From NCBI RefSeq assembly GCF_003846445.2, contig NZ_CP143528.1:1-33025 (forward strand): DNA of 33,025 nt, given 5' to 3'. Source of the DNA: Synechococcus elongatus PCC 11801 (GTDB taxonomy: Bacteria > Cyanobacteriota > Cyanobacteriia > Synechococcales > Synechococcaceae). The notes below the pieces were generated by a model that saw only the letters and a list, made by a program, of their open reading frames with translations, ran no database searches and had not been told where the DNA came from. This document shows positions 11,621-24,810 of the stretch, piece by piece; within the stretch, counting starts at the first letter, position 1, and each line of letters starts with the position of its first letter. The position numbers and the translations under genes are program-made.

Positions 11621-11993
11621 TATCTTTGGGTGAACTAAAGCTCTATCTCCCCCGGTAGTCAGCGAAGCGGCGAGACGCCAACGGTGGCGAGGGGCAAGCG
11701 GTCATTCTCCTCCGACATCCGCAACTTCAACTGACTTTGAGCTGTGGAAGGAGCAGGGCAGTTGCTAGCGGCAGATTTTGAGTCTGCTTCACTTGTTAAA
11801 GCGATCGCTACCCAGCATTCAATTCCGTCATCCTAGACCATTGCAGATCAACACTCGGTATTCGGGATACTTGTTATCGAGGTTCGGAAATCTACACTGT
11901 TAGTAGCTTTAATCTGTAGCTAGAGTTTTTGTGTTTGCTTTGTGCAGTTTTTGTATCGAGCACCCGTTCACCTATAAAACAGGAGTAAATCTC
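11327..11993. other. Gene-free interval
   Basis: Apart from the partial third repeat unit noted above, I see no gene, tRNA or clear promoter. It contains scattered HIP1 cores and several G+C-rich short inverted segments. The last 60 bases become AT-rich and lead to the HNH gene with its AGGAG. Confidence 0.5.
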
Positions 11994-12308
11994 ATGGATT
12001 ATCGTCAATATGGAAAAACAACTGCCAATCGTGGCTTTAATGATCAAACAGTGGATAAAGTTTGGCAAAAAGCTGAACCTATTCCTGGTATGGACTCTTC
12101 TTTAGTGAGAAAGGACGCCTGTGGTGCAAAGATTTTAAGACATCAATATGGACAGACTAACAAGTACGGATGGGAGATTGACCACATCACTCCTGTTTCT
12201 CATGGTGGTAGTGACAACCTTTCTAATCTTCAGCCTCTGCAGTGGGAAAATAATCGTGCTAAAAGCAATCACTTGCATGGCGAGTGGACTTGCGCTGTCA
12301 GCTGGTAG
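11994..12308 (+). CDS. HNH endonuclease
   Basis: A 104-residue protein beginning at the ATG at 11994, with AGGAG eight bases upstream. The HNH core is WEIDHITPVSHGG (60-72), then DNLSNLQPLQW (74-84) and NNRAKSN (87-92), giving Asp63-His64, His70, Asn79 and the Asn87 region. Only one Cys precedes it, so a zinc ribbon is unlikely. Its TAG stop is followed in the same frame by a fragment of an RNase II-like gene, so the HNH gene appears to have landed in, or been joined to, that relic. Small stand-alone HNH proteins are often mobile or phage-linked; here it marks the left edge of the island. Confidence 0.8.
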   Translation: MDYRQYGKTTANRGFNDQTVDKVWQKAEPIPGMDSSLVRKDACGAKILRHQYGQTNKYGWEIDHITPVSHGGSDNLSNLQPLQWENNRAKSNHLHGEWTCAVSW

Positions 12309-12605
12309 ATCACTGCGTGTCCTCCTCAATATTCTCAATTCCGGCAGAATCAAGGAATACAGCCTGTTCTGACGATTGATGGAGCAGTCAGCCTTGACCT
12401 CAATGATGGGGTCTGGGCTGAACTAGTGGGCGATCGCATTCGACTGACCATCGCGATCGCTGGGGTCACGATGGCTATGCCTCCTCCAGGCATTGGGGAT
12501 GGTGTCAGCAGATCGATAGAAAGGGATGGAGTGATGACAAACATCTTTGTTATTGATGACGAATTGACAAAGGAGTTATGCGGTTTTGCAGTTCTCAATG
12601 GATAA
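12309..12605 (+). pseudogene. Fragment of an RNase II/R-type (RNB-domain) gene
   Basis: After the HNH stop the same frame stays open to a TAA at 12603-12605. Its translation contains PVLTIDGAVSLDLNDGVWAE followed by RIRLTIAIAGV, which mirrors the RNB catalytic signature (usually IDxxxxxDLDDA...VAIADV). Key acidic positions are changed (Asn and Gly where Asp and Ala are expected), there is no start codon, and only about 85 codons remain. I read it as a decayed fragment. A second, more decayed copy lies at 18266-18342. Confidence 0.6.
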
Positions 12606-13530
12606 CTGTCTGCCTAATGGGTGGAAGTTACGCGGTAGTCCAGGAGGGCTCCACGTATTCAACCGGAGTACCGGTCTGAATGTTCTTTTCGATGAGATTC
12701 CTGTTCCCTCCTCGCTCCATTCGCGTGCGCCTCGGCAGGTCTCTATCGCGCTCACGAACCGTTGTGACTTAGCGTGTGCGCACTGCTACGCGCCAAAGTC
12801 TTGTGATGAGCTGCCGCTCGAGGTGATCATGCACTGGCTCGCGGAGTTGGACTCGGCAGGCACTCTCGGAGTCGGCTTCGGCGGCGGAGAGCCAACGCTC
12901 TATCCAGAGTTCGTTAAGCTCTGCCAGTACGCGGCGCACGAAACAGGGCTGTCAGTCTCGTTCACTTCCCACGGCCACCACATCGATAAGAACCTGGCTG
13001 AGCACCTTCGTGGCAGCGTCCACTTCATCCGTGTCAGCATGGACGGTATTGGGACAACCTATGAGTCCATTCGACGTCGTTCGTTCGCAGAGCTGCTTGA
13101 GCGACTCAAGGATGTTCGATCCATCTCGCGCTTCGGTGTGAATGTGGTGGTGAACGATCGCACGCTGCCCGAACTCGATGATGTCGCTCGTATCTCTGCA
13201 GATACTGGCGCTAGCGAGCTTCTTCTTCTTCCCCAAATGCCCGTTCGTAGCGTGCCAGCCGCATCTGTGGACACGCTGCAGGAACTACGTCGTTGGGTAA
13301 ACAGTTACACAGGCCCACTGAAACTTTGCATCAATGAGTCGAGTGCCGAAGGCTTTCCGACTTGCGATCCATTGGGGCAGGAACGCGGACTCCGCGCGTA
13401 CGCACATATTGATGCAATGGGCCTTCTCAAGCCCTCTTCCTATTCGGAAACCGGCGTGCCGCTCGACGGTAGCAGTGTGCTGCAAGCACTCGAATTACTC
13501 TCTCAAGACCTAGTGGAGAATGACAGATGA
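12586..13530 (+). CDS. Radical SAM enzyme
   Basis: A 314-residue protein if translation begins at TTG 12586, which lies ten bases after AGGAG; an ATG four codons later is the alternative. The cluster-binding motif is C60-x3-C64-x2-C67 (TNRCDLACAHCYAPKSC) and the SAM-binding GGGEP follows at 99-103. The chain continues as the usual partial TIM barrel (VSFTSHGHH, FIRVSMDG, VNVVVNDR). The Cys-rich SPASM extension is absent; only single Cys residues occur near the C terminus. It overlaps the next gene by four bases (ATGA), so it acts with the DUF6375-like protein and the large nuclease/NTPase. The substrate is unknown; peptide or nucleotide modification are both possible. Confidence 0.8.
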   Translation: MQFSMDNCLPNGWKLRGSPGGLHVFNRSTGLNVLFDEIPVPSSLHSRAPRQVSIALTNRCDLACAHCYAPKSCDELPLEVIMHWLAELDSAGTLGVGFGGGEPTLYPEFVKLCQYAAHETGLSVSFTSHGHHIDKNLAEHLRGSVHFIRVSMDGIGTTYESIRRRSFAELLERLKDVRSISRFGVNVVVNDRTLPELDDVARISADTGASELLLLPQMPVRSVPAASVDTLQELRRWVNSYTGPLKLCINESSAEGFPTCDPLGQERGLRAYAHIDAMGLLKPSSYSETGVPLDGSSVLQALELLSQDLVENDR

Positions 13531-13940
13531 AAATCTGGTACCAGCATGGTTCGGAGCACTCAGCTAACCTCGTCATGATCGGGCGCTTCAAGGACGTAGC
13601 CGAGGCAACGAAGGCTAAGGAGATTATCGACGCGATCGCAAAGCAGGTTGATAAAGAGCTATCGGAAGGGACATTAACCCTGGGGGACCCACCAGCGCGC
13701 TATGGGGAAGAGATGCTCGAACTTCTAGGAAAGCTGAACGCGGTGACGCTCGGGACGAGTGAGCTCGAACAGTTTTCGTACGAGGTCAGCGTCAAATCCA
13801 AGGGAAGTGATCTTGTTGTCACTACCGAAGAGTACGATATCTCGGCATTCCTCAAGGTGATGCTTTTGCAAGGTGCGCGGATTGAGGTCTACTCTGCACA
13901 CGATCATCCCGACAGCGAGTACGGGAGGGGGCTCGGATGA
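13527..13940 (+). CDS. DUF6375-like small protein, partner of the radical SAM enzyme
   Basis: A 137-residue protein opening with MKIWYQHGSEHSANLVMIGR, a start I associate from memory with the DUF6375 family. It is predicted to be mixed alpha/beta with no enzyme motif. Its ATG overlaps the radical SAM stop, and its own stop lies 13 bases before the ATG of the large nuclease/NTPase, so the three genes form one tight operon. It could be an adaptor, a substrate carrier or the modified target. Family name is moderately confident; function unknown. Confidence 0.6.
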   Translation: MKIWYQHGSEHSANLVMIGRFKDVAEATKAKEIIDAIAKQVDKELSEGTLTLGDPPARYGEEMLELLGKLNAVTLGTSELEQFSYEVSVKSKGSDLVVTTEEYDISAFLKVMLLQGARIEVYSAHDHPDSEYGRGLG

Positions 13941-13953
13941 GCATAGAGCTGAG

Positions 13954-16900
13954 ATGCCAGCGCTGAACTGGGACATCTTCACCTGTCTACCGGGGAGCGC
14001 AGAGAAGAACTTTGAGCTGCTCTGCAGGGGTATCGTGCGCCAGAACTTTGGTAGCTTCGGCACCTTCCGCTCCCTTGCAAACCAACCTGGCGTCGAATTC
14101 CATCTCAAGCTCACTCAACGTTGCGATGCACTCGGCGAGCCGGGTCGTTGGTGGGGCTGGCAGTGCAAATGGTACGAGCTCACGGCAAACGGCACGTTGG
14201 GGGCGAACAGAAGAAAGACAATCGAGGAAGGACTCCGCAAGACAGAAAAGTACCTGCCTGAGCTCACGGACTGGGTACTGTGGACGCGCCGCACATTAAC
14301 GAAAGACGACCAAAAATGGTTCAACGGCCTCTCATCCAAGATGTCACTACACCTGTGGACGGGGGACGAAGTTGACAACTATCTCGTTGGGCAGGCAACG
14401 GTTCTTCGCGGTACCTACTTTGGTGAGCTGGTATTCACTCCTAGCATCCTGTGTGAGCGACACGAACAGGCAGTCGCTCGGATTAAAAAACGATGGCAGC
14501 CTGATGTGCATCATGTTGGCAACACTGAGCGCGAGCTGCGTCGAATGCTCGGTGAAGTGGAGGCGTGGGATACGCTTCTTGATCTGGCGACCGAATTGCG
14601 CGCAAACGTCGAGGCAGTCAAATCCTTGCCGGATGTGCCTACTCAACTTGCGTCATGCGTAGCGGCTGTCATCAGTACCTCGAGCCAACTAGCGAATACC
14701 TTAGACAGGGCCGTGCAGGGAATCCGCGTTGGGGACCTTGACCTTCTTCGTGATGAACTCAATGGTCGTTCACGCGTTCTGCCTGCGGAAGTACAAACCG
14801 CCCCTCGAAAACTTCGATCTGGCAGGCAGATTGCGGCGCTCTACGTGACGAATTTAGTGGCAGCCTGTCACGACGCAATACGGGTGCTTAGCGAGGTTGA
14901 GACGGGTTTTTCTTCGCGTCTAGTCGCAGTCCTTGCTCCCGCAGGATGTGGAAAGACCCAGCTTGCCGCTCAGCTCACAGCAAGCACAACAGATCGTCCG
15001 CATGGAGTGCTGTTACACGGAGGAGACTTACACGCGAACCACACACTTGATGACTTAGCTCGTCGTGTGTCGATCGCGGCGCAGCCTGTGCCAAGCATGG
15101 AGGCACTGCTCGCAGCCATTGATGCTGCTGGTCAGCGTGCTCAGAAACGTCTCCCAATCTTGATCGACGGACTGAATGAGTCGGAAGACCCAAGGAGGTG
15201 GAAGCCGCTGCTCGCCGAGCTAGAGGCTACCCTCGTGAAGTACCCGTACGTGCTGCTGGTCTGCACGCTACGCCCCGAATTTATGGACGATGTGCTTCTT
15301 GACGGAATGCACCATCTCGAGCTGGGCGACTATGGCGAAGAGACCATCGAGGCAATTCACAAACACTTCCGCTACTGGAAGATCGATGCCATCGACGCAG
15401 CTTTGCCCGACCTTCTGAGTCATCCCCTCACGCTACGCCTCTTCTGCGAGGTGACAAACGCACCTCGGCAACAGGTTATTGGAATCGGCTCAATGCCAGG
15501 TTCTCTGACATCGCTCTTCGAGCGATATCTTGAACAGGCCAGCGTACGAGTCGCTGAACTCGCTTCACTCACGCGTCGTTTCTATGCGCAAGACGTTAAT
15601 GCAGCGATCGCGGCGATCGCAGACAAACTTTGGGAATCGAGAGCCCGCTCTATTGAGATCGGTGAGCTTCGAAACATGCTCGGAGATGCGCAGCGTCCGT
15701 GGGACCAGAGCCTTGTTCGCGCGCTGGAACAGGAGGGCGTACTACTCCGCACTCCCTCGAACGGCAGCGATGTGTACGTGCCGGTGTACGACATGTTTGG
15801 TGGGTACATCATCGCCAAAGCGCTACTGGCGAAGCACAGTCGAAGCAGCTTTGAGACGTGGATCAATAATTCTTCTACGATGGCGTTGCTTGCTGGAAGC
15901 CACACTGTTCGGCATCCGCTCGCTGGTGATGTCCTCAGATCATTAGTCGAACAAGTTCCTCGTCGGTTCGACTCGAAGCAAGTCTGGCAGATGGTGGACG
16001 AGCCGCTACGTAGCCGAGCATTGCGGTGTGCGGCGCAACTCGAACCTGCGTTCCTCGATGCGGAGACAGTCGACGCACTGATCGATCTCGTTCGGGCTGG
16101 CGATCCAGAAATACTTACCCGACTCTGGCAGATACGCGGTATGCAAGGCCATCCCCTAAATGCCGATCGTCTGGATCAAGTGCTGCAAAGTATGCCAGTC
16201 GCAGACCGCGATCTTCGCTGGACAGAGTGGATCCGCAGGAACTATGACGACCCCTTGGGGCAAGGCCGAAGCATGCTTCGCGACCTTGAGTCTCTAAAGG
16301 ATCGCTGGCGAGGCGGGCACATTCGTCCGGGCGATCGGCTACGTGCGCGTTGGGTCATGTGGACACTCACGAGCACCGTTCGACGCCTGCGCGATCAGGC
16401 CACTTGCGCTCTGTACTGGTTCGGACGCCACAATCCTGAAGGGCTTTTCGCTCTGACAATCGAGTCGCTGCCAGTGAACGACGCTTATGTAGGCGAGCGG
16501 ATGCTTGCGGCGGCATACGGTGTGGTGATGAGCCACCAGCAGGCGGATGATGGGTTTGCAGCTCATCTAGGACCATTTCTCCAGCAGCTCGCATCGGCAC
16601 TCGTGGGGCAGTCAGCGATCGCCCCGACGCAGCACTACTTGGCGCGGCTCTATGTACGCGGTATCGTTGCCTTCGCTGCAAAGTTCTATCCCAGCTTGCT
16701 GCCCACTGCGTTAAGCGGTAAATGGATATTCGCCTCACCTCCACCCGTACAGTCCCTCGTCGATGGCGATGCTGGAGCTGAAGAGGCAGGACAAACGCTG
16801 CACATGGACTTCAAGAACTACACGTTGGGGAAACTTTTCGACGAGCGTAGAAACTATGACATGAGCCATACGGGACATCAGGCAGCCGTAGCTCATGTGT

Positions 16901-17949
16901 GCGGGGTTGTATGGACGCTCGGATGGAGAGCGGCTCGCTTTGACGCGCTAGATCGCCAGATTGCTGAAAGCGCCTATCACTATAGCCGTACAGATCGGTC
17001 ACGCGTAGAGCGGTATGGGAAGAAATACGGATGGACTGGATTCTTCACGTATGCCGGGCTCCTTGAGGAACAAGGGCTGTTGCCACATGGCAGCTCCTTC
17101 TCTGACGTCGATATTGATCCTTCATTCCCTGAACAATCACCTATCGATGGGACGCCCACATCTCCCGAGGTCTGGCTATCCCCATCCACCAAGAGCCACG
17201 AGCAATGGGTTCGAGAGAGCTCTACTTCCGTGCCTCATAACCTTCTCGTTCGGGAGAAGATTGGTGAGCATGATGGACCGTGGGTTGCTGTCTACGGATT
17301 TGTCTCGGCTGAGGACAGGGTACTCGGGCGCGGGGCATGGGCCTTCATCTCGGCGTTCGTGACCCCAAAACAGACATCGCAACAACTGGTAGATGCTCTG
17401 AAAGATGGTTTGCGGCCATGGGTAGCTAGCAACATTCCCAGCGACTACTACACATTCGCTGGCGAGATCCCTTGGCACCCACGCTTCGCCGCCGAAGTAC
17501 TTGCCGAATCTGGCCTGGAGCATGCATACCGAGAGACCATTCACGTTGGTACGCGCAACGTGGTGGTTGAGATCCTCTCGCATACCTACGAGTGGGAGAC
17601 CTACCACAATGAGATCAACCGAGCTGGCAGTGTGTACGTGCCGTCTCGGCATTTCTCAGCACGGTTTGACCTGCGGAGCATGCCGCAAGGATTTGATCAG
17701 TATCTGCCCAATGGCACAAAAGCGACCATTACGTTGAGTAGTGTCGATGGACTAAAAGGCAACGTACTGTATGTTCGGGAAGACCTGCTTCAGCAATACA
17801 TCGGTGACCGCACTGTAGTGTGGTTTTCATTCGGCGAGCGTGAGTTGCGACCCTATCCACCATCACCACCGCAATGGCTCGTGGATGCTCAGCAGAAACA
17901 AGAAAATGCGTGGACTGAGGTACTAACCGAGGCTGACTTTAGGCCCTAG
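13954..17949 (+). CDS. Large restriction-nuclease-like/P-loop NTPase protein (STAND- or Avs-like architecture)
   Basis: A 1331-residue protein from the ATG at 13954. Residues about 5-165 look like a PD-(D/E)xK nuclease: GVEFHLKL with Glu48 and WWGWQCKWYE with Gln70-x-Lys72, as in Mrr-type domains. A helical linker leads to a P-loop NTPase with Walker A LAPAGCGKT (327-335) and Walker B LPILIDGLNE (400-409). The remaining ~900 residues are long helical repeats and a C-terminal region, a plausible sensor. Nuclease, switch and large sensor in this order resemble Avs4-like phage sensors, though I see no proof of homology. GC content is normal and some HIP1 sites occur, so it may come from another cyanobacterium. 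A Lys-rich tail is encoded just past the stop in another frame. Confidence 0.7.
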   Translation: MPALNWDIFTCLPGSAEKNFELLCRGIVRQNFGSFGTFRSLANQPGVEFHLKLTQRCDALGEPGRWWGWQCKWYELTANGTLGANRRKTIEEGLRKTEKYLPELTDWVLWTRRTLTKDDQKWFNGLSSKMSLHLWTGDEVDNYLVGQATVLRGTYFGELVFTPSILCERHEQAVARIKKRWQPDVHHVGNTERELRRMLGEVEAWDTLLDLATELRANVEAVKSLPDVPTQLASCVAAVISTSSQLANTLDRAVQGIRVGDLDLLRDELNGRSRVLPAEVQTAPRKLRSGRQIAALYVTNLVAACHDAIRVLSEVETGFSSRLVAVLAPAGCGKTQLAAQLTASTTDRPHGVLLHGGDLHANHTLDDLARRVSIAAQPVPSMEALLAAIDAAGQRAQKRLPILIDGLNESEDPRRWKPLLAELEATLVKYPYVLLVCTLRPEFMDDVLLDGMHHLELGDYGEETIEAIHKHFRYWKIDAIDAALPDLLSHPLTLRLFCEVTNAPRQQVIGIGSMPGSLTSLFERYLEQASVRVAELASLTRRFYAQDVNAAIAAIADKLWESRARSIEIGELRNMLGDAQRPWDQSLVRALEQEGVLLRTPSNGSDVYVPVYDMFGGYIIAKALLAKHSRSSFETWINNSSTMALLAGSHTVRHPLAGDVLRSLVEQVPRRFDSKQVWQMVDEPLRSRALRCAAQLEPAFLDAETVDALIDLVRAGDPEILTRLWQIRGMQGHPLNADRLDQVLQSMPVADRDLRWTEWIRRNYDDPLGQGRSMLRDLESLKDRWRGGHIRPGDRLRARWVMWTLTSTVRRLRDQATCALYWFGRHNPEGLFALTIESLPVNDAYVGERMLAAAYGVVMSHQQADDGFAAHLGPFLQQLASALVGQSAIAPTQHYLARLYVRGIVAFAAKFYPSLLPTALSGKWIFASPPPVQSLVDGDAGAEEAGQTLHMDFKNYTLGKLFDERRNYDMSHTGHQAAVAHVCGVVWTLGWRAARFDALDRQIAESAYHYSRTDRSRVERYGKKYGWTGFFTYAGLLEEQGLLPHGSSFSDVDIDPSFPEQSPIDGTPTSPEVWLSPSTKSHEQWVRESSTSVPHNLLVREKIGEHDGPWVAVYGFVSAEDRVLGRGAWAFISAFVTPKQTSQQLVDALKDGLRPWVASNIPSDYYTFAGEIPWHPRFAAEVLAESGLEHAYRETIHVGTRNVVVEILSHTYEWETYHNEINRAGSVYVPSRHFSARFDLRSMPQGFDQYLPNGTKATITLSSVDGLKGNVLYVREDLLQQYIGDRTVVWFSFGERELRPYPPSPPQWLVDAQQKQENAWTEVLTEADFRP

Positions 17950-18037: not shown

Positions 18038-18265
18038 GACAGACCTAAATTTGCCTGCGGGTCCGGACAAAGTCTTGACGCTAATGACTTGAAAGACCTC
18101 TGTGGGGGGGTTAGCTGGTATTCCTGAGGGCGATTGCCAAGGCTACGTTTTTAGAGCACCAGATTTAGCTCTGTCTATTATGTTTCTAGTAGATGAAAGC
18201 TAGTCATTGAGATTTTCAGGAATTGTCATGAGATAAGACAAAGCTGGATCAGATCCTTAGTCTGA

Positions 18266-18342
18266 CAGAATCAGGGAATATAGTCTGTTCTGACAATTGT
18301 TTGACTTCATAGCCTTAACCTTGATAATGGCGTCTGCATGGC
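18266..18342 (+). pseudogene. Second, decayed copy of the RNB gene fragment
   Basis: Aligned codon by codon with 12345-12421, the first 72 bases match at 54 positions, mostly through transitions and third-base changes, and without gaps. This copy has acquired TAG and TGA stops in the reading frame. The two copies are in the same orientation and bracket the radical-SAM island. Beyond about 18345 the similarity is lost; the rest of the 17950-18461 gap holds nothing else I can name. Confidence 0.6.
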
Positions 18343-18461
18343 GACGGCCGTTGCTTCATCTGGAAAGTGGGGAATGTATGTCACTGACACGGCTGCAGAC
18401 GGTCTATCAGAGCACCCAGATGTCTCTCATTATTCTTTTGATTAGTGTTTACACTTAGTTT

Positions 18462-19214
18462 TTATATTCCAATTTCACGTTCAATGACTCTTTTCTTTTG
18501 ATGATATAGGTTCTCGACAAAGTCGTTGTAATCTTGACTATGATGAAAATTGAAAAAATCTTTTAGAAAAGAATCACCCGCAGGAAGAATCTTACTTTTA
18601 ATTCTTGGCCGAGCTAGGTCAAGTGTCTTTAGTTGATCTAAATGCTCAGAAAGTTCAAGACTTTTACTGCTAGAGTATCCTGTTTCTATTCTGGAGTTAA
18701 TTAGTCTTTGCAGCTCTTCATGGTTTGCTTCTTCTGAGTTTGTACCTTTCCTAATATAAACACAGTTTTGTTTAATCTCTTTACCTGTTTTTTTTGCAAG
18801 CAAAGGAAGAATTTCAGGGTTATAATCAACAATAAGAACTTGAAAAGACTTATTTTTTATTTTTTCGTACTCGGAGTCTTGATAAGAAAAATCGAGTATT
18901 TCTAGACTAACTTCAGAGGGGATATACGATCTAAATTGCTTGAAGATATCTGACTTGTCTTTTATTTCTTGGACTCCTATAGCTTCTAGCGAGTTTTTAT
19001 CGGACTGTTTTATACCGACTATAATTACTCCACCACCGCTATTCGCCATTGCCAATATATGCTTAGCTAGCTTAGTTGACTCAGGCCAAGCTTCTTTAAA
19101 GTCAAGATTATCAGTTTCACCAATATTATCTTTAAGTAAATTTCTGAGGGCAACTCTTGTTGGCTCCTCAAAAAATTTTGCAAATGCTTCGTGTTGTTTT
19201 TTTGGAATGGTCAT
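18462..19214 (-). CDS. AlbA_2 (Schlafen-like) domain protein
   Basis: A 250-residue protein. Residues about 28-150 carry the AlbA_2/divergent AAA-4 signature: ETDNLDFKEAWPES, AKHILAMANSGGGVIIVGIKQ, and VYIRKGTNSEEANHEEL near the end of the domain. The rest is helical and charged. These domains resemble the Schlafen core and occur in transcription regulators and in several defence proteins; nuclease or nucleic-acid binding activity is possible here but not shown. The DNA is AT-rich, has no HIP1 and stands alone between the island and rep, consistent with separate acquisition. It may share the intergenic hairpin at 19362 as a boundary with rep. Confidence 0.7.
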   Translation of the reverse strand: MTIPKKQHEAFAKFFEEPTRVALRNLLKDNIGETDNLDFKEAWPESTKLAKHILAMANSGGGVIIVGIKQSDKNSLEAIGVQEIKDKSDIFKQFRSYIPSEVSLEILDFSYQDSEYEKIKNKSFQVLIVDYNPEILPLLAKKTGKEIKQNCVYIRKGTNSEEANHEELQRLINSRIETGYSSSKSLELSEHLDQLKTLDLARPRIKSKILPAGDSFLKDFFNFHHSQDYNDFVENLYHQKKRVIEREIGI

Positions 19215-24186: not shown

Positions 24187-24810
24187 ATGAGTTTGATAAA
24201 TCTAATTCAATTTATTGGAAGTGGAACAGTTTTCTTGGCTATTTCGGGTTGGTTTATTAGATCAATAACTCTTCATTTTCTTTCAAGAGATATTGAAAAA
24301 TATAAGTTTGATTTAAAAAGAGAAAATGACAGAGAAATCGAGCATTATAAAGCTCTTTTAAATGCTGAAAATTCAAAAGAGCAGATCAAATTTTCTAAGC
24401 TTCAAGAACGAAGGTCTTTAATAATAGAAAAAACTTACAAAAAAATTATTGATCTAGAAAGTTCAGAGGCATATCTTACTAGTCTGATTAGTGAAGTAAA
24501 AGAAGATGTAGAAGAGTACGCAGATTTAAAAAGAGCCTCAGACGAGTTCATTGATAGTTTTTTGGGACTTAATTCCTTTTTAATGAAGAATGCAATCTAC
24601 TTTCCTAAGAATATCTCTAATAAAATAGAAACTTTCAGCACCTCAACATTCTATCTTTCCATAGATATTTTTTATCACTCAGATTCTAATAATGTGAAAG
24701 ATTTCATTGATTTGTTTCAAGCAAAAAGAAAATACTTTAATGGCAAAAATACAGAAATAAAAAGTTTTATCGAGTCAGAATTTCGACGTCTACTTGGTGC
24801 AGCTGAATAA
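24187..24810 (+). CDS. Membrane-anchored coiled-coil protein of unknown function
   Basis: A 207-residue, lysine/glutamate-rich protein with GAGGTAA upstream of its ATG. One transmembrane helix (about 7-30) is followed by a long charged coiled coil (about 34-85) and a helical C-terminal domain. The DNA is strongly AT-rich with no HIP1 sites, unlike the operons on both sides, which marks it as a recent acquisition. Proteins of this look are common in accessory and defence islands, but I recognise no family. It converges on the five-gene operon, 30 bases away. Confidence 0.55.
   Translation: MSLINLIQFIGSGTVFLAISGWFIRSITLHFLSRDIEKYKFDLKRENDREIEHYKALLNAENSKEQIKFSKLQERRSLIIEKTYKKIIDLESSEAYLTSLISEVKEDVEEYADLKRASDEFIDSFLGLNSFLMKNAIYFPKNISNKIETFSTSTFYLSIDIFYHSDSNNVKDFIDLFQAKRKYFNGKNTEIKSFIESEFRRLLGAAE

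Follow-up and report, generated by a model that had tools for sequence, protein, structure and literature searches.

We describe a three-gene cassette on a plasmid of Synechococcus elongatus PCC 11801 that combines a radical S-adenosylmethionine (SAM) enzyme, a DUF6375 protein and a large phage-sensor protein of the Avs2 family, and we regard it as a new AVAST branch, in which a system of the Avs2 lineage carries a radical-SAM/DUF6375 accessory module. The analyzed DNA, here called the window, is a stretch of 33,025 nucleotides (assembly GCF_003846445.2, contig NZ_CP143528.1, positions 1-33,025, forward strand). All three genes are on the + strand, arranged head to tail: radical SAM at 12586-13530 (314 amino acids, TTG start), DUF6375 at 13527-13940 (137 amino acids) and Avs at 13954-17949 (1331 amino acids). 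A first-pass annotation of the sequence had placed three coupled open reading frames at 12586-17949, which is exact, and had called them a candidate new defence system. That proposal is supported, and neither of the two outcomes named as refuting it was observed: the three families do co-occur elsewhere, and no system of this composition was found in PADLOC, NCBIfam or the literature searched, although a description elsewhere is possible. No Avs type is known to include a radical SAM enzyme. The proposal is refined in two respects. Because the large protein belongs to the Avs2 family, the cassette falls within AVAST, as a new branch, and is not a system unrelated to it; and the radical SAM enzyme is neither a viperin nor a complete SPASM maturase.

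Our leading reading, to which we give slightly less than even credence, takes the cassette for an abortive-infection system of the Avs2 type, whose accessory module would probably act as a maturase of DUF6375 or the sensor. The chemistry and substrate of the enzyme, and the anti-phage activity itself, are matters of inference.

The large protein belongs to the Avs2 family

The first-pass annotation had noted a resemblance to Avs-type phage sensors, and this turns out to be homology. In Pfam, the large protein has weak P-loop matches. The PADLOC Avs2 model PDLC02164, however, matches residues 3-909 at E = 3.9e-99, and a six-frame search with the same model gives a further C-terminal match (E = 1.3e-24), so that homology to Avs2 extends along the protein. 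A profile built from twelve relatives retrieves 9O4E, a solved Avs2 structure, at 6.1e-70, and each of the six Avs2 models matches all twelve relatives. The large protein itself scores 201.8 bits against the NCBIfam Avs2 equivalog and does not reach the cut-off of 1000, so that it is related to Avs2 without being a standard member.

The order of its domains and its catalytic motifs are those of AVAST type 2. Approximately residues 1-180 (13954-14493, an approximate boundary) form a PD-(D/E)xK nuclease domain of the Mrr/Cap4-like kind, assigned by motif alignment with solo Avs2 proteins, i.e., those lacking the two partner genes. Its motif is of the type G-V/I-E...Q-x-K with predicted catalytic residues E48, Q70 and K72, and G46-V47-E48 and Q70-x-K72 are common to the large protein and eleven solo Avs2-like proteins. 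The STAND NTPase core at about residues 285-500 (14806-15453) was placed by alignments and weak NACHT/AAA Pfam matches. It contains Walker A at about 328-335 with K334 and Walker B, IDGLNE, with D405, again common to the solo proteins. Thus, the earlier assignments of K72 as the nuclease lysine and K334 as the Walker A lysine hold. A presumed sensor region spans about residues 717-1331 (16102-17946; alignments and the PADLOC C-terminal match), and its DFxxY and ERYGKKY (GKKY) motifs are also found in Avs2. The start codon is ATG at 13954 rather than the upstream GTG at 13873, as homologues start at the same MPALNW-type residue. By these similarities, the large protein is an Avs2-family sensor with a predicted nuclease and STAND NTPase.

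It differs from Avs2 in several respects. The known Avs2-like genes that we examined stand solo, whereas here the Avs gene sits behind the radical SAM and DUF6375 genes. The cassette protein is well under the equivalog cut-off and in a separate clade, although profile similarity covers its N-terminal ~900 residues and then returns in the C-terminal region. It also lacks the long insertion that several solo relatives have between DFxxY and GKKY. A cysteine between Q70 and K72, C71, is kept in the clade linked to the partner genes and is not there in the solo proteins, and it may be regarded as a candidate modification site, no more.

The three genes travel as one unit

A gene-neighbourhood survey had been suggested for the three families, and they were found to co-occur at essentially every locus. 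The trio was recovered from three independent starting points, namely radical SAM, DUF6375 and Avs. When near-identical Vibrio plasmids are taken as one, the radical SAM gene is beside DUF6375 in 21 of 21 distinct loci, and the Avs gene comes next in 20 of them. The exception is a plasmid record of Deinococcus peraridilitoris with an IS3 insertion sequence where the Avs gene would be. Hosts belong to at least six phyla (Cyanobacteriota, Pseudomonadota, Planctomycetota, Deinococcota, Actinomycetota and a Schekmanbacteria metagenome-assembled genome), and the Avs protein of the window is 65-73% identical to proteins from Rhodopirellula, Cyanobium, Pelagibius and Billgrantia. No E. coli carrier was found at the DNA level with the Vibrio copy as a probe.

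The radical SAM query against 84,980 species genomes gave at least 11 loci, all with DUF6375 and then Avs, a floor because this screen used short peptides and reaches close relatives only. On plasmids, the DUF6375 query hit 15 records with the radical SAM gene adjacent in every one. The 14 plasmid records carrying the closest Avs relatives (at least 33% identity over most of the protein) are among these DUF6375 records, the fifteenth being that of D. peraridilitoris. Leaving aside a short fragment on a Streptomyces plasmid, 42% identical over 12% of the query, the next Avs relatives on plasmids are at 31% identity or less and are partial or solo. Screening for the DUF6375 family found it in 3 of 291 cyanobacteria, 4 of 398 genomes of Billgrantia's phylum, 2 of 294 from the phylum of a Phycisphaeraceae genome and, above the cut-off, 1 of 296 from that of Streptosporangium. 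The trio is present in all of the new matches above the cut-off.

The gene order is fixed. The radical SAM and DUF6375 genes share a stop/start overlap, ATGA, at 13527-13530 (+) in the window, and exactly this 4-nucleotide overlap occurs in 17 of the 19 loci measured, which makes translational coupling of the two genes likely. Pairwise distances of the three proteins correlate with r = 0.94-0.98. The ratio of nonsynonymous to synonymous substitution rates is 0.08-0.23 for all three genes, indicating purifying selection, and this selection and the recurrence of the trio across phyla together argue that the association is not due to chance. The three genes are one conserved, co-transmitted unit.

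Maximum-likelihood analysis puts 17 linked Avs proteins on one side of a branch with 100/100 support and 11 solo Avs2-like proteins on the other. The root of this tree is not fixed, several outgroup branches are long, and the linked set was collected mainly via the partner genes. One of the 17, from locus L055, starts at a contig end with its partners out of view, and nests within the linked clade. The stretches examined around the 11 solo genes contain neither a radical SAM nor a DUF6375 neighbour, and an Avs-first search of plasmids found no close Avs relative without the pair. Most simply, the pair would have been acquired once, and the complete cassette would then have spread horizontally, in line with the 65-73% identities noted above.

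Two independent modules could also co-travel, a complete Avs2 defence and a separate pair serving as another defence or in plasmid addiction. The occurrence of solo Avs2-like genes without partners fits this, and so does the survival of an intact pair where the Avs gene is missing or interrupted (loci L004, L016 and L042). However, the pair was not found in another context, no member of the linked clade was found without it, and distances agree gene by gene, which leaves such co-travel very unlikely in our judgement.

Damaged copies of the Avs gene were seen at a few loci. In Patulibacter (L016, 9314-13359), it is apparently frameshifted with radical SAM and DUF6375 intact, and in a planctomycete genome (L042, 7763-8167), it has an in-frame stop past codon 134, the pair again being intact; either could be a sequence error. 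In two Vibrio plasmids (H58 and H59), IS3 splits the Avs gene. We rejected the idea that the pair outlasting a broken Avs is a sign of toxicity: Avs makes up about three quarters of the cassette, so it is no surprise that the few lesions all hit this gene. Incidentally, on large conjugative Vibrio plasmids (L005, 15118-16873), the cassette lies immediately upstream of the qnrVC6 and dfrA resistance genes. At the end of a Streptomyces plasmid (L031, 1-1342), a fragment that shares ~40-48% identity with the C-terminal region of Avs stands beside a DUF6527 protein, with no radical SAM gene within the available stretch.

The radical SAM enzyme and its DUF6375 partner

As first proposed, the upstream gene encodes a radical SAM enzyme (PF04055, E = 1.4e-16) with a CxxxCxxC motif at C60/C64/C67, its single [4Fe-4S]-binding motif. 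These three cysteines are invariant in 20 of 20 relatives and are the only invariant ones of the enzyme. The motif belongs to a strictly conserved catalytic set that includes GGGEP(T) and other core residues.

The core is nearest to the SPASM/twitch maturases of peptides and cofactors (MftC, PqqE, SkfB and MoaA). In profile comparison, the mycofactocin maturase MftC matches residues 46-242 with a probability of 99.6%. Among solved relatives, the SkfB maturase is best, followed by PqqE by profile, with viperins and MoaA after them. MftC, SkfB and PqqE are the closest known likeness of the core in both solved structures and NCBIfam. The cassette differs from their systems in having neither a short precursor-peptide gene nor an RRE gene, and the enzyme differs in its C-terminal domain, where no auxiliary Fe-S cluster cysteine is conserved among the 20 relatives. 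In our reading of the alignment, the tail AHIDAMGLLKPSSYS resembles the beginning of a SPASM domain in which the places of the cluster cysteines are taken by serines or other residues, and the domain may be a cysteine-free, SPASM-like remnant. A full SPASM maturase was rejected on the same ground, as no cysteine beyond the core motif is conserved.

Viperin identity was rejected too. The PADLOC pVip profile matches the core at E = 1.3e-18, and the NCBIfam viperin model NF038283 gives 53.6 bits, under its equivalog cut-off of 180 bits; the mycofactocin, GeoRSP, NirJ and MoaA models score equal to or above viperin. The enzyme is therefore neither a viperin nor a complete SPASM maturase. It resembles prokaryotic viperins in core similarity and as a radical SAM enzyme in phage defence, and differs from them in being tied to an Avs sensor and in having DUF6375 as an extra partner.

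Viperins are nevertheless known radical SAM defence enzymes, and with the above core matches they lend something to the idea that the enzyme makes a diffusible small molecule in the manner of viperin ddhNTPs (didehydro-deoxynucleoside triphosphates), either an antiviral nucleotide or a ligand activating Avs, with DUF6375 as a partner or carrier. We consider this unlikely, given the missed viperin cut-off and the equal or better scores of the other models, and because a free product would not require an unbroken genetic link to one Avs clade.

The small partner, earlier described as DUF6375-like, matches PF19902 with 142 bits against a curated cut-off of 27.5 (E = 2.2e-41). Alignment reveals an invariant N-terminal M-K-x-W...G-S/A-E-H-S, in the window W4 and GSEHS at residues 8-12, with S123 and H125 conserved near the C-terminus. 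It has no conserved cysteine, which speaks against a cysteine-based modification (a thioether or Cys-derived formylglycine) on DUF6375 itself. The protein was also considered as a known fold or an RRE, and this was dropped since neither Pfam nor PDB sequences nor PHROGs gave a credible match.

Three points weigh against the maturase reading. The enzyme is without the SPASM cysteines of typical peptide maturases; its core similarity also fits small-molecule substrates, as in MoaA and viperin; and no leader-binding family (RRE/PqqD) matches DUF6375, for which Pfam gives DUF6375 alone at a credible E-value. We keep the maturase role as leading but unproven, ahead of a small-molecule product, redox or SAM sensing, and self-marking.

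Alternatively, the radical SAM/DUF6375 pair could itself be the sensor, its oxygen-sensitive cluster or the SAM level reporting infection stress and gating Avs. The enzyme has one core cluster motif only, and the gene overlap suggests a stoichiometric complex, both in line with such a sensor. The full catalytic set is strictly conserved, however, which argues for turnover rather than sensing only, and we hold this alternative to be quite unlikely.

Defence and phage neighbourhood

The cassette is found among defence genes. In Pelagibius litoralis (L007, 679-5904), a Gabija-like pair and a serine recombinase lie upstream of the trio, with matches to GajA at 1e-202 (possibly partial at the N-terminus) and GajB at 4e-240. 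Neighbours elsewhere include TIR, SIR2 and caspase proteins and a relative of MADS mad8. On an IMG/VR contig (L054, 680-10526), the trio is directly upstream of genes for a head maturation protease, a head decoration protein and a major capsid protein, apparently a phage or prophage bearing the cassette. Nevertheless, a phage origin of the cassette was rejected, as there was no match in 50,697 phage genomes; a single-sequence search found no DUF6375 in viral contigs.

These neighbours and the carriage next to phage head genes bear on whether the trio serves defence at all or is a plasmid biosynthetic or stress cassette of radical SAM type built on an Avs-like scaffold. They argue against the latter, as do the conserved nuclease and STAND residues and the Avs2 homology along the length of the protein, and we see very little chance that it is correct. 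A defence role is well supported by inference from sequence and from known Avs systems.

The cassette site on the plasmid

The window is part of an S. elongatus-type plasmid and encodes a CyRepA1 replication protein. Its backbone is 83-89% identical to the S. elongatus plasmid pIITB6_2 across long aligned stretches; that plasmid lacks any equivalent of the cassette. In the window, the cassette is bracketed at 12340-12505 (+) and 18261-18426 (+) by two degraded copies of an RNB-domain ribonuclease gene, both from its 5′ end. The upstream remnant, which marks the upstream cassette boundary, is 82% identical over 166 nucleotides to the start of a chromosomal RNB gene (C1:268436), also matches RNB genes on S. 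elongatus plasmids, and forms a direct repeat with 18261-18336. An intact RNB gene is found near CyRepA1 on the S. elongatus plasmids pIITB3_1 and pIITB6_1. With the remnants on both sides, the intact gene on those two plasmids and pIITB6_2 without the cassette, the pattern is that of a variable accessory site.

A small HNH endonuclease gene (PF01844, 1.1e-7) at 11931-12308 (+) is immediately upstream of the cassette, and a Schlafen/AlbA_2-domain protein (PF04326, 1.6e-15) is encoded at 18462-19214 (-), between the cassette and the replication gene. Farther away, 24187-24810 (+) has weak PADLOC similarity (2e-4) to a transmembrane-partner model of a defence-associated reverse transcriptase.

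Possible mechanism and meaning

After Avs biology, the Avs protein would be both sensor and killer. By analogy to Avs2, its C-terminal region would bind a terminase-like or other conserved phage protein; the NTPase would drive oligomerization; and the N-terminal nuclease would then cut phage and host DNA. The part of the pair is less certain. The radical SAM enzyme and DUF6375 may form a complex in which a SAM-derived radical installs a post-translational modification on DUF6375, most likely at GSEHS/W4, or on Avs. Once modified, this complex would be required to license the sensor, to broaden what it recognizes or to restrain it.

The enzyme could instead modify DNA or a phage structural component, thereby marking self, as the first-pass annotation had also suggested, or making a ligand seen by Avs. 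The Avs nuclease has to avoid constant self-damage, and modification with restriction is a common defence logic. Yet Avs1-4 nucleases cut both host and phage genomes once terminase, portal or Ksap1 is sensed (PMC12931631), so that self-marking is not needed, and the cassette has no DNA-modification partner for base insertion or glycosylation. This alternative is therefore improbable to our mind.

A modifying partner for Avs has some precedent. AVAST systems take on partner-enzyme modules that activate the effector (PMC12799240). In AVAST type 1, an Avs sensor is likewise accompanied by accessory enzyme genes controlling the effector, although Avs1 has separate pro-nuclease and protease-STAND genes, and in place of radical SAM and DUF6375 it is partnered by an MBL-fold nuclease and a trypsin-like protease. 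In the vWA-MoxR FtsH ternary conflict systems, another NTP-dependent kind, a radical SAM enzyme is thought to modify a peptide effector, a standalone peptide or small protein (Kaur et al. 2020, PMC7159879). Their NTPase machinery is different, and the passage on them names no Avs protein and no DUF6375. In the literature searched, which left most subscription papers and bioRxiv outside, DUF6375 has no mention, and the sole paper found in which both 'radical SAM' and 'AVAST' occur makes a passing mention of viperin.

Tentatively, and with less confidence than in the reading of the cassette as a whole, we propose that a STAND NLR-like sensor here depends for its activity on a modification installed by the radical SAM enzyme, on or through DUF6375, a licensing that is undescribed for AVAST.

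The cassette extends the Avs2 lineage by a catalytic accessory module and gives DUF6375 a firm context as a component of a phage-sensor cassette. Should the radical SAM enzyme indeed modify the sensor complex, maturation of a bacterial pattern-recognition receptor would depend on radical chemistry, and it could then be asked which residue is modified, when in infection this occurs, and whether the recognized phage protein is thereby set.

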